A stretch of 35,921 nt of DNA from Chitinophaga pinensis (GTDB lineage Bacteria > Bacteroidota > Bacteroidia > Chitinophagales > Chitinophagaceae), in NCBI GenBank assembly GCA_943327275.2, contig CALPWM020000003.1, positions 1 to 35,921 on the forward strand, in the 5' to 3' direction. The notes below the pieces were generated by a model that was not told the DNA's origin, ran no database searches, and worked only from the letters and a program-made list of their open reading frames with translations. Numbering within the stretch: position 1 is the first letter of the stretch; each line of letters starts with the position of its first letter. The translations under genes and the position numbers were made by a program. This document shows positions 26,685 through 33,549 of the stretch, piece by piece.

Positions 26685-26725
26685 AATCCTTCTGAGGAAT
26701 TACATATTCCCCAGAAGGATTTTTT
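26685..26725 (+). terminator. Rho-independent terminator of the GH2 gene
   Basis: AATCCTTCTG pairs with CAGAAGGATT (26712-26721), and inside it GGAAT pairs with ATTCC around TACAT, separated from the outer stem by one A/C mismatch. The stem is followed by TTTT ATTT on the plus strand. The T-run overlaps the stop codon of the convergent FAD gene (26724-26726). Confidence 0.85.
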
Positions 26726-29700
26726 ATTTGCGAAGGATTTGTCCTGCCTTGATCATCTCCTTCTCCAACACATCATAAGGAACCTGCTGCATGCTGACTT
26801 TCTTGTCAATGGCCAATGATGCAGCAAGCGCGGCAGATTGGCCAAGAATCATGAACACCGGCTCCATCCGAATAGAGCCATAGGCAATATGTGAACTGGA
26901 TACGCATACCGAAACCAGCAGGTTTGAACATTCTTTTTCTTTTGGCAAGATTGCTCCAAAGTCAATGGAATAGGGCCTTTCAGGCTTCACCCCGATATCT
27001 CCTTCATTCTGAAGAAAACCATCAGGTGTGACATAGCGCTGTGTATTGTGTGAATCCAAAGAGTATGAACCCATGCCGATAGGACGTTTGATGTCAGTCT
27101 TGCCCAGAGCATCTTTTTCCGTCATCACAAAATCACCCAACATCCTCCTGGCCTCTCTGACATAAAGCTGATAAGGCCATCCACCATTGTCAACAAATTC
27201 ATCCTTGGCCAATCCATAGGTATTGAACTGCTGTTGGATGTCCTTGGGCACAGAAGGGTCATTGGCCATGAAATAGAGATAGCCCTTCTGGTACTTTTCG
27301 TGCTCCAAGATGATCTCCTTTCTGCGCACATAAGAAGCATCCGGATAATCATAGTTGGCCCCAATAAAATCACTGCTGAAAGGGCCATGGTTGTTGGTAT
27401 CCGTCTTCTTGTTGGGAACTGCATCAAACTTGGGAAATACATCGCGCCAGCCTGCTGCAAAAAGCCTTGAAAGAATTTCATAGCGCTTGGGGTCATAACC
27501 CTCCGGCTTGGGAAATGGAATGCTGTTGGCTGCTGCTGTACTCATGCACAACCGGTAACAGTAGGCCTGGATTTTATTGTCGCCATCACCCTTTTTCCCT
27601 GGAGGCGCAGCACTGACTTCTGGAAGCAAGCCACTTGAAGGAAGTCCGGGAATTTTATACGGATCAATTTTCTGTTTGAAATGGTGCGCATGGTGAAATA
27701 CCTCCGTTTGTACACCATTAAATTGTTCGCCGTATTGACCAGTCGCTTCCCTTCCAACTGTATATTTAACACCGGCGGCGGCCATCAGATCACCCTCGTA
27801 AGTGGCATCGATGAATGCCTTCCCTGCAAAGACCATTCCATCCAGTGTTTTAAAGGAAAGGATTTTATTGCCTTTCATGTTTACTCCTTCAAGAGAACGG
27901 TCAAGCCAACGGTCGCGGTAGACCATGATCCTGTTTTCGCTGATCATCGCTTCAAATGCTGCTTCAGCAACATGGGGTTCAAACAACCACATGGTTTTGT
28001 ATGCCGTGTCATTGGCAACAGTTCCTTGCCCTCGATTGCCAAACGCACTGCGTTGCTGCCATTTCCATGCACTGTCTGTTTGATAATGGTTGTAGAGTCG
28101 ATGATAGAAATTCCTGGCCAATCCACCGATGACGGTCTTGTCGCCAGTGTCGGTGTAACCCAAGCCATTTGATGACAATCCACCCAAATGCAAATCAGGA
28201 GAAACCACCACCACAGATTTCCCCATTTGTACCGCCTGCACGGCTGCAATGACGGCAGATGAAGTTCCACCATATACGACGATGTCTGCAGTGATTTTTC
28301 TTTCCAAAGACAAGACCTGCCCATCTTTCAGCAACTGTGCTTTCAAGCTTTCATAGGAAAGATCCTGCACATCGATATTTTTTTCCAAAGCCATGACTGC
28401 TGCAGTGGCAGCGGATTGCCCGAGCACCATGTACACCGGTTCCATGCGGATGGAACTATAGGCCACATGGGATGCAGACAAACAAACAGGCACCAGCAAA
28501 TTTGAACACTCCTTTCTTTGGGGGATGATGGAACGGAAACTGATTCCATAATAGGTTGACTTCTGCTTTCCATATCCACCCTCGAGCCTTACCTTCCCCT
28601 CGTTGTCCAATACCCGTGCTACATAATGACAATCCAAAGGATAGGTCGCTACTGCAACCGGATCAGCCACAGGCCTTGCTCCATTGCAGTTTTGCTCTGT
28701 CATGACGTAGTCGCTGATCATCCTTCTTGCTTCCCTCACATAAACCTGATAGGGAAAATGATCGGTATCGAGATATTCATCCTTGGGCCATCCCCAGGTT
28801 TTCATTTCTGTGCGCATGCTCAACGGCAATCGTTCGTCATTGCCAAGAAACCAAATCAGCCCCATGGAATAGTCTTTGTGCTTTGCGGCAATCTCAACCC
28901 TGGTTGCATGATCTGCATTGGGCCACGCATAAGAATTTCCCACAAAATTGCCCTGGTTGGTATCTGTCTTTTTGTTGGGCATGGGAGTGAATGAAATGAT
29001 GCTGCTCAATTCAATATCTGGATTGAGGGCAATCATTCTTGCCAAAAACTCATACCAAAGTGGGTTATAGTTCTTGGGCTTTACAACATCAATGCGGTTG
29101 GCAGCATCATTGGTCAAGGTCAGCCGATAGCAATAGGTTTGTGTGCGGTCATCACCAGTACCCTTATCACCTTGGGGCTTCGGATCAATGAAAGGCAATA
29201 ATCCGCTTTCTGGCTTTCCGGGAATAACATAAGGGTCGATGGATGTTTCGCCATTGCCGACAACTGCCCCGAGGCGAATGCCGTTCATGGTTTCGCCATA
29301 GGTGGCGTTGCTTTCACGACCAACCTTGAAAGAGAGTCCGGCCATGCGCATGAGATCACCCTCATAACTGGCATCAATGAACATTTTGGCAGGTATCTTC
29401 ATCCCGCTTTCCATGCTGATGATTTTCAAACGCCCGTTCTCTTTTATTGGCTCAGACTTGAGGTTGATGCGTTGGTTGTAAATCACCGTTACACCATGAT
29501 CTTGCAACATCTGTTTGAAGATTTTTTCACCGATGCCAGACTCATAGACCCACTGCATTTTCAATGAATCATTTTTGCCTGTAAAGGTTCTTTTCTTTGA
29601 CCGTTCAAAAAAATCTGTCCGATTTTCAGATTTCCATGCAGCTGAATCTAAGTAATATGCATAAATACGCTGGTAAAATTCCTTTGTAAACCCTCCAGCA

Positions 29701-29954
29701 ATCCGGAAATTGTTGAGGTCTGTTGCAGTGAGCCCCGAAGTAGCCATCCCCCCAAGATGCTTATTGGTGCTAATCAAAACCACAGACTTTCCCATCTTGG
29801 CTACCTGTAATGCAGCGGTGATGCCTGCAGGCGTTTCTCCATAAACGCATACATCAAAAACCCTTTCTTTTGCAGTGGCCGATGAAAAAATGAAGATGAT
29901 CAACAAGGGAATACTGAGCAGTCTTTTTAACAGGTTTTGGAAGCAGAACATCAT
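26724..29954 (-). CDS. Tandem two-module FAD-dependent oxidoreductase (FAD_oxidored family), exported
   Basis: This 1076-residue protein contains two full copies of a family usually about 550 residues long. A signal peptide (about 1-28) comes first. Module 1 covers about 33-546 and module 2 about 555-1076. Each has an N-terminal dinucleotide-binding strand (VCVYGETPAGITAAL at 36-50; IVVYGGTSSAVIAAV at 558-572), then FIDASYEGDL/FIDATYEGDL, YCYRL, PNKKTDTN, YVREARRM, and a C-terminal ECSNLLV...SIRMEP motif. The glycine patterns differ: GETPAG in module 1 and GGTSSA in module 2. Relatives are often mislabelled 'xanthan lyase'. The substrate is unknown and a sugar or polyol oxidation is only a guess. 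It is convergent with GH2 and divergent from the nitroreductase gene. Confidence 0.88.
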   Translation of the reverse strand: MMFCFQNLLKRLLSIPLLIIFIFSSATAKERVFDVCVYGETPAGITAALQVAKMGKSVVLISTNKHLGGMATSGLTATDLNNFRIAGGFTKEFYQRIYAYYLDSAAWKSENRTDFFERSKKRTFTGKNDSLKMQWVYESGIGEKIFKQMLQDHGVTVIYNQRINLKSEPIKENGRLKIISMESGMKIPAKMFIDASYEGDLMRMAGLSFKVGRESNATYGETMNGIRLGAVVGNGETSIDPYVIPGKPESGLLPFIDPKPQGDKGTGDDRTQTYCYRLTLTNDAANRIDVVKPKNYNPLWYEFLARMIALNPDIELSSIISFTPMPNKKTDTNQGNFVGNSYAWPNADHATRVEIAAKHKDYSMGLIWFLGNDERLPLSMRTEMKTWGWPKDEYLDTDHFPYQVYVREARRMISDYVMTEQNCNGARPVADPVAVATYPLDCHYVARVLDNEGKVRLEGGYGKQKSTYYGISFRSIIPQRKECSNLLVPVCLSASHVAYSSIRMEPVYMVLGQSAATAAVMALEKNIDVQDLSYESLKAQLLKDGQVLSLERKITADIVVYGGTSSAVIAAVQAVQMGKSVVVVSPDLHLGGLSSNGLGYTDTGDKTVIGGLARNFYHRLYNHYQTDSAWKWQQRSAFGNRGQGTVANDTAYKTMWLFEPHVAEAAFEAMISENRIMVYRDRWLDRSLEGVNMKGNKILSFKTLDGMVFAGKAFIDATYEGDLMAAAGVKYTVGREATGQYGEQFNGVQTEVFHHAHHFKQKIDPYKIPGLPSSGLLPEVSAAPPGKKGDGDNKIQAYCYRLCMSTAAANSIPFPKPEGYDPKRYEILSRLFAAGWRDVFPKFDAVPNKKTDTNNHGPFSSDFIGANYDYPDASYVRRKEIILEHEKYQKGYLYFMANDPSVPKDIQQQFNTYGLAKDEFVDNGGWPYQLYVREARRMLGDFVMTEKDALGKTDIKRPIGMGSYSLDSHNTQRYVTPDGFLQNEGDIGVKPERPYSIDFGAILPKEKECSNLLVSVCVSSSHIAYGSIRMEPVFMILGQSAALAASLAIDKKVSMQQVPYDVLEKEMIKAGQILRK

Positions 29955-30877: not shown

Positions 30878-31531
30878 TCAATCTGTATCCTCTGCTTTCA
30901 ACAGCCTGATATCCCTCTCAAGCTGCTCCATGTCCAGATCGAGCGTACCATTGTAAATACCCCTGATCCTTCCGGTTTTATCTACAAGCAATACATGTTC
31001 GGTATGCAAAAAATCTGTGCTGTCTTTGGTAAAACCCAATGCCTCTTCTGCAAAATAAGACCTGCGGGCAAGGGTATAGATATCCGATTTGGGGCCGGTT
31101 AGTAAATGCCAATTGGGAGCATTGATCTTGTTCGTGTTGGCGTATTCCCTCAACCTTGAAACACTATCGCGCCAGGGAGTGACAGAAAAAGAAAGAAATA
31201 CTACCGCAGAATCCTTTTCATATGCATGGTTGAGTTTGGCAATCTTATTCATCATTCCAGGACAGATACTCCCACAACCGGTAAAAAAGAAATTGGCCAC
31301 ATGGATTTTGCCTTCTACATCTTTCTCAGAAAATGCATGACCATTCTGGTTTTTCAAATCAAATCTACCAATGGTATGGGTGATTATTTTTTCAACTGAT
31401 GCTGCACCATTCAAAAAAATCGGACTAAAATCTGGTGTATTATAATAGGGCAAAGCCTTTACTGAAGGCTGTTGCCTGCAAGCCGCCATCAGAAAAAACA
31501 AACTAATTGATGCCAACACTATCCGATACAT
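30878..31531 (-). CDS. SCO1/SenC-family copper chaperone-like lipoprotein
   Basis: The ORF track starts at 31639, but the lipoprotein signal MYRIVLASISLFFLMAAC begins at the ATG 31529-31531, so I use that (217 residues, Cys18 lipidated). The thioredoxin fold of SCO proteins is seen from about 45 to 215. The CxxxC copper site is TGCGSIC (Cys86, Cys90) and the conserved His is probably His176 in FLHTEHVLLVD. FSVTPWRDSVSRLREYA and NWHLLTGPKSDIYTLARRSY are typical SCO regions. Known role: delivery of copper to, or thiol reduction of, the CuA site of cytochrome oxidase, or copper-linked redox sensing. It is the last gene of the sigma/sensor operon and overlaps the MORN lipoprotein gene by 29 bases, so the two are probably translationally coupled. 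Confidence 0.92.
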   Translation of the reverse strand: MYRIVLASISLFFLMAACRQQPSVKALPYYNTPDFSPIFLNGAASVEKIITHTIGRFDLKNQNGHAFSEKDVEGKIHVANFFFTGCGSICPGMMNKIAKLNHAYEKDSAVVFLSFSVTPWRDSVSRLREYANTNKINAPNWHLLTGPKSDIYTLARRSYFAEEALGFTKDSTDFLHTEHVLLVDKTGRIRGIYNGTLDLDMEQLERDIRLLKAEDTD

Positions 31532-32021
31532 TGATACAGTTTTTTGTTCCGAGCAGACCGTAACGCCTGCCATTGCGGATGATGTAATTGGAACGGATGC
31601 TGCCATCGTCGTACCATTGTTTTTGCGCACCCGATTCATACCCCCTTTCGTAATTCATTTCACGAACTAGCTTTCCTTCTGGATTCCACTCTCTGCAAGT
31701 GCCCTGGTATTCTCCATTGGCGAAAAAATACTGCGCTTGTATTTTTCCATTGCTCCAATACCTTTTCAATGGGCCGGTTTTGACGCCCTGCACATAATAG
31801 CGCTGCTCCATCAAAACACCATTCTCATGAAACCTTCTGAACTCGCCATGTTCCATGCCATTGTAAAAAGATCTAACAGCAAGGGTATCAGCAGTACCGG
31901 GATAAAATTCATACTGCGCAATACCCTTGGGTTGCATCTTGCATCCCATCAAAAAAATCAGGCAAAGCGCAAACCAACTAATTCGAAACCGTACCAGCTG
32001 TTCCAAAGAAACCATTTCCAT
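31503..32021 (-). CDS. MORN-repeat (YwqK-like) lipoprotein
   Basis: This is about 172 residues from the ATG at 32021 (Met23 of the ORF-track entry; the ATG at 32015 is an equal choice). A long n-region leads to FALCLIFLMGC, a lipobox. The rest is a run of four to five MORN_2-type repeats: NGMEHGEFRRFHENG, QGVKTGPLKRYWSNG, NGEYQGTCREWNPEG, GYESGAQKQWYDDG and NGRRYG. Such repeats form beta-hairpin ribbons that often act as protein-interaction surfaces. Its start lies inside the end of the YHYH gene (44-base overlap) and its end inside the start of the SCO gene. It belongs to the metal-sensor operon and may bridge the two neighbouring lipoproteins, which is inference. Confidence 0.85.
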   Translation of the reverse strand: MEMVSLEQLVRFRISWFALCLIFLMGCKMQPKGIAQYEFYPGTADTLAVRSFYNGMEHGEFRRFHENGVLMEQRYYVQGVKTGPLKRYWSNGKIQAQYFFANGEYQGTCREWNPEGKLVREMNYERGYESGAQKQWYDDGSIRSNYIIRNGRRYGLLGTKNCINVSDSVGIN

Positions 32022-32748
32022 TGATATAAGGATCTGCATCCGTGATATGATAGTGATAAATGCCAGCAGGATAATCTGCTGTGGCATGCTTGTGCCCGTG
32101 GTAGGCGTCCAGGCTTGTGTTGCTCACTTTCGCACCATTCTCTTCTGGACCATATACCGGAAAGCCATCCAACAGAAAACCCAACAAGGATGACTTGTTC
32201 AACTTAGTTTGGGTCAGGTAAAGTGGCTCAACATGATAATGGTACATGCCGCCAGGAGCTGGATGGCCCCAGCTTTGGTCAAAGCTCGCCATTTCTCCAG
32301 TCAATGGTTGATTGGGGCCAGCATACTGGTTGAAGAATGGCACGCCATTTACAGTTACACCTATTGGCCCCAAGGGAGTTGGCTTCTTAATGCTTGCTTC
32401 AGCAGGATTGATGGGGATTTTGAAGGTATAGGAAAGTGTATTGATGGAATTGGGATTCTTCACAAATATTTTCCCTCCAAAAGTGGCCCCTGAAAATGCT
32501 TCATAGAGTGGATTTGTTGTTGCATAATAAGCACTCTTATGGTCTGGTGTGCCAGTGCTTTTGATGGTAACGAAAGTTCCATCAGCGGTGATGCTGGTGG
32601 CGCCGTATATCTTCTTGTAAACATCGGGGACCGCAGATGATGTTGAAGGGGTTGAGGGGGTTGAAGGAGTTGAAATTGCGGCCTTCTTGCAGGCGAAACC
32701 AAGAATGATGAGTGCCAATAAAGTGAAAAAATTGTTTTTCGTATTCAT
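31978..32748 (-). CDS. YHYH-domain lipoprotein
   Basis: This is 256 residues: signal peptide with lipobox LGFAC (Cys20), a low-complexity STPSTPSTPSTSS linker (26-38), then a YHYH domain. The diagnostic motif occurs twice, GMYHYHVEP (169-172) and GIYHYHITDADP (231-234), with LLGFLLDGFPVYGP between them and HGHKH at 217-221. DHK near residue 70 and WGHPAPG at 160-166 add further histidines. The domain is found in bacterial exported proteins of unknown function; the His clusters suggest metal binding. Here it sits between a metal-sensor gene (18 bases upstream) and the MORN and SCO1-like genes, so a role in periplasmic copper or other metal handling is the best inference. The evidence is motif and context only. 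Confidence 0.9.
   Translation of the reverse strand: MNTKNNFFTLLALIILGFACKKAAISTPSTPSTPSTSSAVPDVYKKIYGATSITADGTFVTIKSTGTPDHKSAYYATTNPLYEAFSGATFGGKIFVKNPNSINTLSYTFKIPINPAEASIKKPTPLGPIGVTVNGVPFFNQYAGPNQPLTGEMASFDQSWGHPAPGGMYHYHVEPLYLTQTKLNKSSLLGFLLDGFPVYGPEENGAKVSNTSLDAYHGHKHATADYPAGIYHYHITDADPYINGNGFFGTAGTVSN
32635..32673 (-). repeat. Short 9-base tandem repeat coding (STP)n
   Basis: About four copies of a GTTGAAGGG-like 9-mer encode the STPSTPSTPSTSS linker of the YHYH lipoprotein. The copies are imperfect (GTTGAGGGG, GTTGAAGGA). Slippage would change linker length in frame, in steps of three residues. Confidence 0.7.
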
Positions 32749-32766: not shown

Positions 32767-33549
32767 TTATTGTTGATCGGGGGGAGGCAAAGGGCGTTTT
32801 CCACCATGGGGAGGATGGCCCTCACCTTGTTTCGGAGGATGTCCTTCTCCGGGAGGTGGTGGGCGATGTCCTTCTCCGGGAGGAGGTGGGCGATGTCCTT
32901 CTCTAGGTGGTGGTGGATGACCTTCACCGGGTGGAGGTGGTGGGCGATGTCCTTCTCCAGGTGGTGGCGGATGTCCCTCTCCGGGAGGTGGCGGGCGATG
33001 CTGATCAATTGCCGATGGATGTTTCCTATTGCTATCCGCTGCTGATGCAGGAAGATGATGATCAACAGGGCCGGGTGGAGCACCTTGGGGGGCTCTTGAT
33101 TCAGCCATCAAACCAGCCAATTGATCCAATAACCCATCAAATTTCTTTTTTTGCCTGTCGTTGCAGAGTGCCCTCAATTGTTGAAAATGTTCCAGATTGA
33201 GCAACTCCAGATCCTGAATTTTTATGGTGATGGCCTCTACTGCTTTCATTTTCTCCGGCTCGGGAATGACGGGTTGCTTAAGCAGTTGGAAAAGGTTTTC
33301 TTTGGCAATCCTGATATCCTTTTTTAAGGACCTTGCTGATGCCTGATGCGCCTCAATTAAATCCTGAAAAGAAAGCAGCTGACTTGAATCCAATTCAAGG
33401 GTTTGGACCAGAAACTCCCTGGGAGATCCTTTCTGGACTTGACTTTTAGAGGGCCTATTGATCCAAAATAACAAAATGGTTACTGCGTTGGCTAACAGGA
33501 GAAAAACAACCCACCAGGTAAGCACCCTGCTTTTTATCGTATTGTTCAT
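32767..33549 (-). CDS. Membrane-anchored periplasmic heavy-metal sensor (CnrX/Spy-like) with Pro/His repeat tail
   Basis: This is 260 residues. A transmembrane helix at about 9-30 (LTWWVVFLLLANAVTILLFW) anchors a periplasmic helical Metal_resist-type domain (about 44-150): FLVQTLELDSSQLLSFQDLI, EAHQASARSLKKDIRIAKENLF, HFQQLRALCNDRQKKKFDGLL. This fold is shared by CnrX, ZraP and Spy proteins. The last ~100 residues are a tail with seven (G/R)EGH units joined by PPPP, with 12 histidines in total, ending in HPPHGGKRPLPPPDQQ. Such a tail is a plausible metal sink or sensor extension. It is preceded by the small TM protein (12 bases) and followed by YHYH (18 bases). By analogy with CnrYXH it signals metal to the sigma factor; which metal is unknown. 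Confidence 0.85.
   Translation of the reverse strand: MNNTIKSRVLTWWVVFLLLANAVTILLFWINRPSKSQVQKGSPREFLVQTLELDSSQLLSFQDLIEAHQASARSLKKDIRIAKENLFQLLKQPVIPEPEKMKAVEAITIKIQDLELLNLEHFQQLRALCNDRQKKKFDGLLDQLAGLMAESRAPQGAPPGPVDHHLPASAADSNRKHPSAIDQHRPPPPGEGHPPPPGEGHRPPPPPGEGHPPPPREGHRPPPPGEGHRPPPPGEGHPPKQGEGHPPHGGKRPLPPPDQQ
32815..33000 (-). repeat. 24-30-base tandem repeats coding (R)PPPP(P)GEGH
   Basis: Seven imperfect copies of a unit reading on the plus strand like GGAGGTGGTGGGCGATGTCC encode HRPPPPGEGH-type blocks. Unit length varies (24, 27 or 30 bases) because of optional Arg and extra Pro codons, always in frame. Related strains would be expected to differ in copy number. Confidence 0.8.

Follow-up and report, generated by a model that had tools for sequence, protein, structure and literature searches.

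The open reading frame at 26724-29954 on the minus strand of the window, which is the whole 35,921-nucleotide stretch of Chitinophaga pinensis DNA analyzed here, encodes an exported protein of 1076 residues in which two FAD_oxidored (PF12831) modules, named A and B, are fused in one chain. We consider it likely that two exported FAD_oxidored genes of one module each, long distinct from one another, were fused to give this gene, with both halves binding FAD and carrying out two related oxidations. What is new is the two-module architecture, as the underlying FAD_oxidored family is already known.

The reading frame contains no internal stop codon. A probable Sec signal peptide, read from the sequence, occupies residues 1-28 (MMFCFQNLLKRLLSIPLLIIFIFSSATA; 29871-29954, minus strand) and has no lipobox cysteine, and the 1076-residue protein is probably Sec-exported to the periplasm. 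Module A (residues 29-553; 28296-29870, minus strand) was assigned to the A subfamily of FAD_oxidored based on PF12831, the tree and an AlphaFold2 model, and module B (residues 554-1076; 26727-28295, minus strand) to the B subfamily based on PF12831 and the tree. The nucleotide-binding loop of module A is GETPAG (residues 39-44; 29823-29840, minus strand), identical in the single-module orthologues at loci L207 and L208, and that of module B is GGTSSA (residues 562-567; 28254-28271, minus strand), the same or nearly the same in most single-module B genes. Comparison with single-module A and B genes places the fusion junction between Lys553 and Ile554 (28294-28297, minus strand), where the natural module ends abut with no extra linker. 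PF12831 was found twice in the reading frame, with 696 bits in total; the two matches each cover profile positions 1-416 and reach 336.9 bits for A and 357.6 bits for B, the curated cut-off being 27 bits. By BLASTP, 216 of 526 aligned positions (41%) are identical and 62% are positive over the whole modules (414 bits, E 3e-144). The original prediction of two complete FAD_oxidored modules in one exported protein is thus borne out by the BLASTP E value and by two profile matches far above the cut-off. The motifs that it named (FIDA-YEGDL, YVREARRM, ECSNLLV, GETPAG, and GGTSSA) are all present, and its end-to-end alignment of the halves was reproduced at 41% over 526 columns.

Gene arrangements in other genomes suggest that A and B act as a pair, because B-type genes often lie directly downstream of another PF12831 gene. 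Of 24 B-type singles, 8 have a PF12831-like neighbor on the same strand no more than about 175 bp away, and in six of these it lies upstream, like A in the fusion. A further PF12831/B-type tandem pair was identified in genome G1203, and a looser pair, about 730 bp apart, in G1227. According to the tree, the partners upstream of B-type genes belong to subfamilies C and D, not A, which indicates that the tandem pairs are not recent duplicates. No genome in which separate A and B genes adjoin each other was found among the matches listed in the genomes searched. Judging from these arrangements, B-type enzymes may often be accompanied by another, divergent member of the family, and such a pair may have become permanent in the fusion. 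A mere clustering of paralogues in utilization loci is a weaker explanation of the tandem pairs.

The frequent adjacency of B-type genes to another family member, together with the nearly linker-free junction, would also suit a fixed intramolecular heterodimer that copies an ancestral dimer, in which the halves need each other for stability and not for a second activity. The original prediction proposed modeling the intramolecular dimer. Module A alone was predicted by AlphaFold2 with a mean pLDDT of 92.9, and the model contains the N-terminal beta-alpha-beta nucleotide-binding unit (E5-10, H14-25, E30-33). The full-length model has a mean pLDDT of 84.1 and shows both modules complete, with beta-alpha-beta nucleotide-binding elements in both halves and low confidence in the signal-peptide region (residues 1-28); in its input, nearly all single-module rows were aligned to half B and only a few sequences to half A. 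Its pTM is 0.59 and the relative placement of the halves is uncertain, which speaks against the heterodimer. Furthermore, the A and B subfamilies each occur alone, including at distant sites in one genome. We regard a heterodimer held together for stability as an unlikely, though conceivable, account of the chain.

The preferred reading is that of two active enzymes in one chain. Each half would bind its own FAD, the halves would perform two related but different oxidations on the breakdown products of sugar polymers, and the fusion would tie both enzymes together in a 1:1 ratio. At certain fixed positions, the A and B subfamilies have different residues. A point against FAD binding in both halves is that the textbook GxGxxG is absent from the A loop and from the B loop. 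A bolder form of the two-enzyme reading, which we hold to be rather doubtful, is that B-type proteins are obligate partners of a divergent A, C or D member in successive steps on one substrate, and that the fusion would be a periplasmic di-flavin enzyme passing an unstable oxidized sugar between its two sites.

The divergence of the two loops had led the original prediction to propose that one half may have lost FAD binding. Such a pseudo-dimer, with one half lacking FAD or catalysis and only scaffolding or regulating the other, could draw on the unlikeness of GETPAG and GGTSSA, and on the departure of module A at several positions fixed in B- and C-type proteins, where it lacks both the H-x-F loop (757-759 in B) and Ser860. 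However, most of the departures of A, including both losses, are common to free-standing A-type enzymes, and both loops match those of intact single-module orthologues. The loops of A-type singles are GETPAG, GESAAG or GATSAG, and those of B-type singles are GGTSSA, GGTSAA, GGTAAA and similar. Nearly all the positions fixed in exported single-module relatives are retained in both halves; most of the exceptions in A recur in free-standing A-type proteins, and those in B amount to a handful. The two halves are under equally strong purifying selection, with dN/dS ranging from 0.06 to 0.11 in A and from 0.05 to 0.08 in B over all 15 pairs of six doubles, and the predicted folds of both are complete. 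These observations speak against the proposed loss of FAD binding, and a dead half is improbable. The loop differences are subfamily signatures and not decay, and the protein is predicted to carry two FAD per chain and to have two activities.

The halves come from two subfamilies that are known as separate single-module genes. In maximum-likelihood trees, the A halves cluster with single-module A-type genes (100/100), and the B halves are nested among single-module B-type genes, which form a large clade, and have singles of the same genus as their nearest relatives (100/100). The closest A orthologues among the matches listed are single modules of G1314 and G1322, which are 65-66% identical to A and have the GETPAG loop, and the B-type singles in the window's genus are 66-70% identical to B. 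In G1314, A and B are separate genes about 350 kb apart. The junction can be read directly from such genes: a single-module A orthologue ends in ...GQVLSLDRK followed by a stop codon, whereas the fused protein continues as ...GQVLSLERK|ITADIVVYGG..., and B-type singles have a signal peptide immediately ahead of the corresponding ADIIIYGG, where the fusion has module A. An A-type gene thus lost its stop codon and a B-type gene its signal peptide when these two old paralogues were joined cleanly in frame. The original prediction had instead described a tandem duplication. That one module was duplicated internally and then diverged would account for two halves alignable end to end at 41%, but each half resembles separate singles (65-70%) far more than it resembles the other half, and forcing the A and B halves into a single clade lowers the log-likelihood by 295 units (AU p = 4e-61), which rejects A and B as sisters and, unless the tree was distorted by strong convergence or gene conversion, leaves an internal duplication highly improbable.

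The double was seen in seven MAGs, the window's included, all of one genus. The other MAGs contribute five full-length doubles and one cut by a contig end, at 86-94% identity, and the six complete doubles are stop-free. Most of the doubles are flanked by a nitroreductase gene and/or a GH2 gene, which indicates that they represent one orthologous locus. An assembly or read-through artefact uniting two adjacent genes has next to no probability, since, common as separate tandem genes are among relatives and although G029 and G433 gave long frames that yet held stops, no stop codon, second signal peptide or start region lies between the modules in the window and the identical junction was found again in the other MAGs of the genus. 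The double thus is a genuine fusion of two subfamilies, conserved and so far restricted to one genus.

The rarity of the double was assessed among Bacteroidota relatives. The genome sets, which overlap, comprised 41 for the genus, 299 and 200 for the family, 399 for the order, 395 for the class and 396 for the phylum. Apart from the doubles of the seven MAGs, no pair of PF12831 modules in one chain was found among the matches listed for these several hundred Bacteroidota genomes. The statement that family members are normally single modules holds for the other relatives checked, among the matches listed. The original prediction had counted the existence of many relatives with the double and both FAD sites intact as a point against it; six close relatives do have the double, with both motifs kept, and none was found beyond the genus among the matches listed. 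For some genomes of the genus, the matches listed include a single-module B (66-70% identical) but no A, which suggests that the fusion is characteristic of one subgroup within the genus. Several candidates were rejected as doubles. The long frames of G029 (contig C3, open frame 1120) and G433 (contig C59, 1142) each hold a pair of genes with intervening stop codons, G1227 (contig C64) likewise has two separate genes, and ORFs of more than 1100 residues with one PF12831 match are fused to unrelated domains instead. Besides, two tandem single-module A-type genes, about 51-52% identical to A, were observed on contig C16 of G178 (L103:16453-19715, minus strand), and a third A-type gene lies about 11 kb from them; the A subfamily has expanded locally there.

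The gene neighborhoods of relatives bear on the substrate. In the window, the gene is flanked by a nitroreductase gene in divergent orientation and a GH2 gene in convergent orientation; that it is not part of a SusC/D operon counts against a role in sugar metabolism. The A orthologue of G1314 lies in the order SusC-SusD-A-MFS-GH2-like, the B gene of the same genome adjoins a GH78 alpha-L-rhamnosidase gene, and other relatives adjoin SusC/SusD, sulfatases or a glucuronyl-esterase-like gene. Likewise against such a role, the neighbors of the B-type genes of G225 and G205 are TIGR03364/DUF5690 genes and not sugar genes. The B-type gene of G225 (contig C30, L115:5843-9949, minus strand) is downstream of genes for a TIGR03364 FAD-dependent oxidoreductase and a DUF5690 protein, and G205 (L117) shows a similar arrangement, in which the neighbors were assigned by sequence likeness only. 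Collectively, the glycoside hydrolase fusions of the family and the GH78 and SusC/D neighbors of relatives point to periplasmic sugar oxidation, and our best guess is that the double would oxidize oligosaccharides or sugar acids in the periplasm.

Fusions of FAD_oxidored to other domains were also observed. Elsewhere in the window's genome (G000, contig C23), an ORF of 888 residues combines an N-terminal GH43 domain with a C-type FAD_oxidored module (L175:6843-9506, plus strand), and a long ORF of G222 (L067) resembles it. FAD_oxidored is joined with GH88 and Golvesin_C at L184:2023-5382 (plus strand) and with GH28 and Golvesin_C at L187:1561-4992 (plus strand), and these fusions provide further ties of FAD_oxidored to the breakdown of pectin-type sugars. 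An ORF of 1185 residues in G116 (contig C1, L186:1811-5365, plus strand) contains the N and C domains of a GMC oxidoreductase and FAD_oxidored, and an ORF of 1191 in G188 is of a length akin to it.

No match to a Bacteroidota-type promoter was found near the gene, neither promoter- nor terminator-like sites were in excess, and Rfam gave no match. Further along the window, three minus-strand ORFs (30878-31639, 31503-32087, and 31978-32748) in different frames span 30878-32748, each overlapping the next at its end; by eye, the first is SCO1/SenC-type-like and the last YHYH-domain-like. An adjacent region (32767-33549, minus strand) holds an ORF of 260 residues that is made up, over its C-terminal third, of a Pro/His/Gly-rich repeat of HPPPPGEGH units; a probable sigma factor and a short membrane protein are encoded next to it.

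Bacteroidota have many exported FAD_oxidored proteins, and these are present in sugar-polymer utilization loci. The lineage bearing the fusion belongs to freshwater Bacteroidota, and the fused architecture is unusual for a common family. A natural fusion of two subfamilies is a 'Rosetta stone' hint as to which members may work together, and, with the tandem pairs elsewhere, it offers a concrete enzyme pair to express and assay.

Profile and fold searches found no solved structure covering the FAD_oxidored module, the matches stopping at the nucleotide-binding unit; no member of the A or B subfamily with a measured activity was found, and a literature search for PF12831 / FAD_oxidored returned nothing on these subfamilies. 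The protein shares the N-terminal Rossmann nucleotide-binding fold with GR2-type flavoproteins such as flavocytochrome c3 fumarate reductase and the HI0933-like 2i0z, but the sequence likeness is confined to the N-terminal part and the fold matches are partial, with a TM-score of about 0.3. The flavocytochrome c3 profile matches the query at 2-54 only. Membership of the HI0933-like family (PF03486) was rejected at 26.4 bits against a cut-off of 50, and that of the flavocytochrome c3 / fumarate reductase family for want of likeness past the Rossmann unit and the TM-score of about 0.3. The closest known systems are the exported single-module PF12831 members of Bacteroidota (L207 and L208 for A, L054 for B), which share the whole module, the loops, the invariant residues and the signal peptide; they have one module, whereas the fusion unites two subfamilies in one chain behind one signal peptide. 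In the PF12831 fusions with GH43, GH88, GH28, and GMC, FAD_oxidored is likewise joined covalently to a second catalytic domain, but the partner is a glycosidase or an unrelated flavoenzyme and not a second FAD_oxidored. Among them, the GMC fusion of 1185 residues (L186) is, like the A+B double, a chain of two flavoenzymes.
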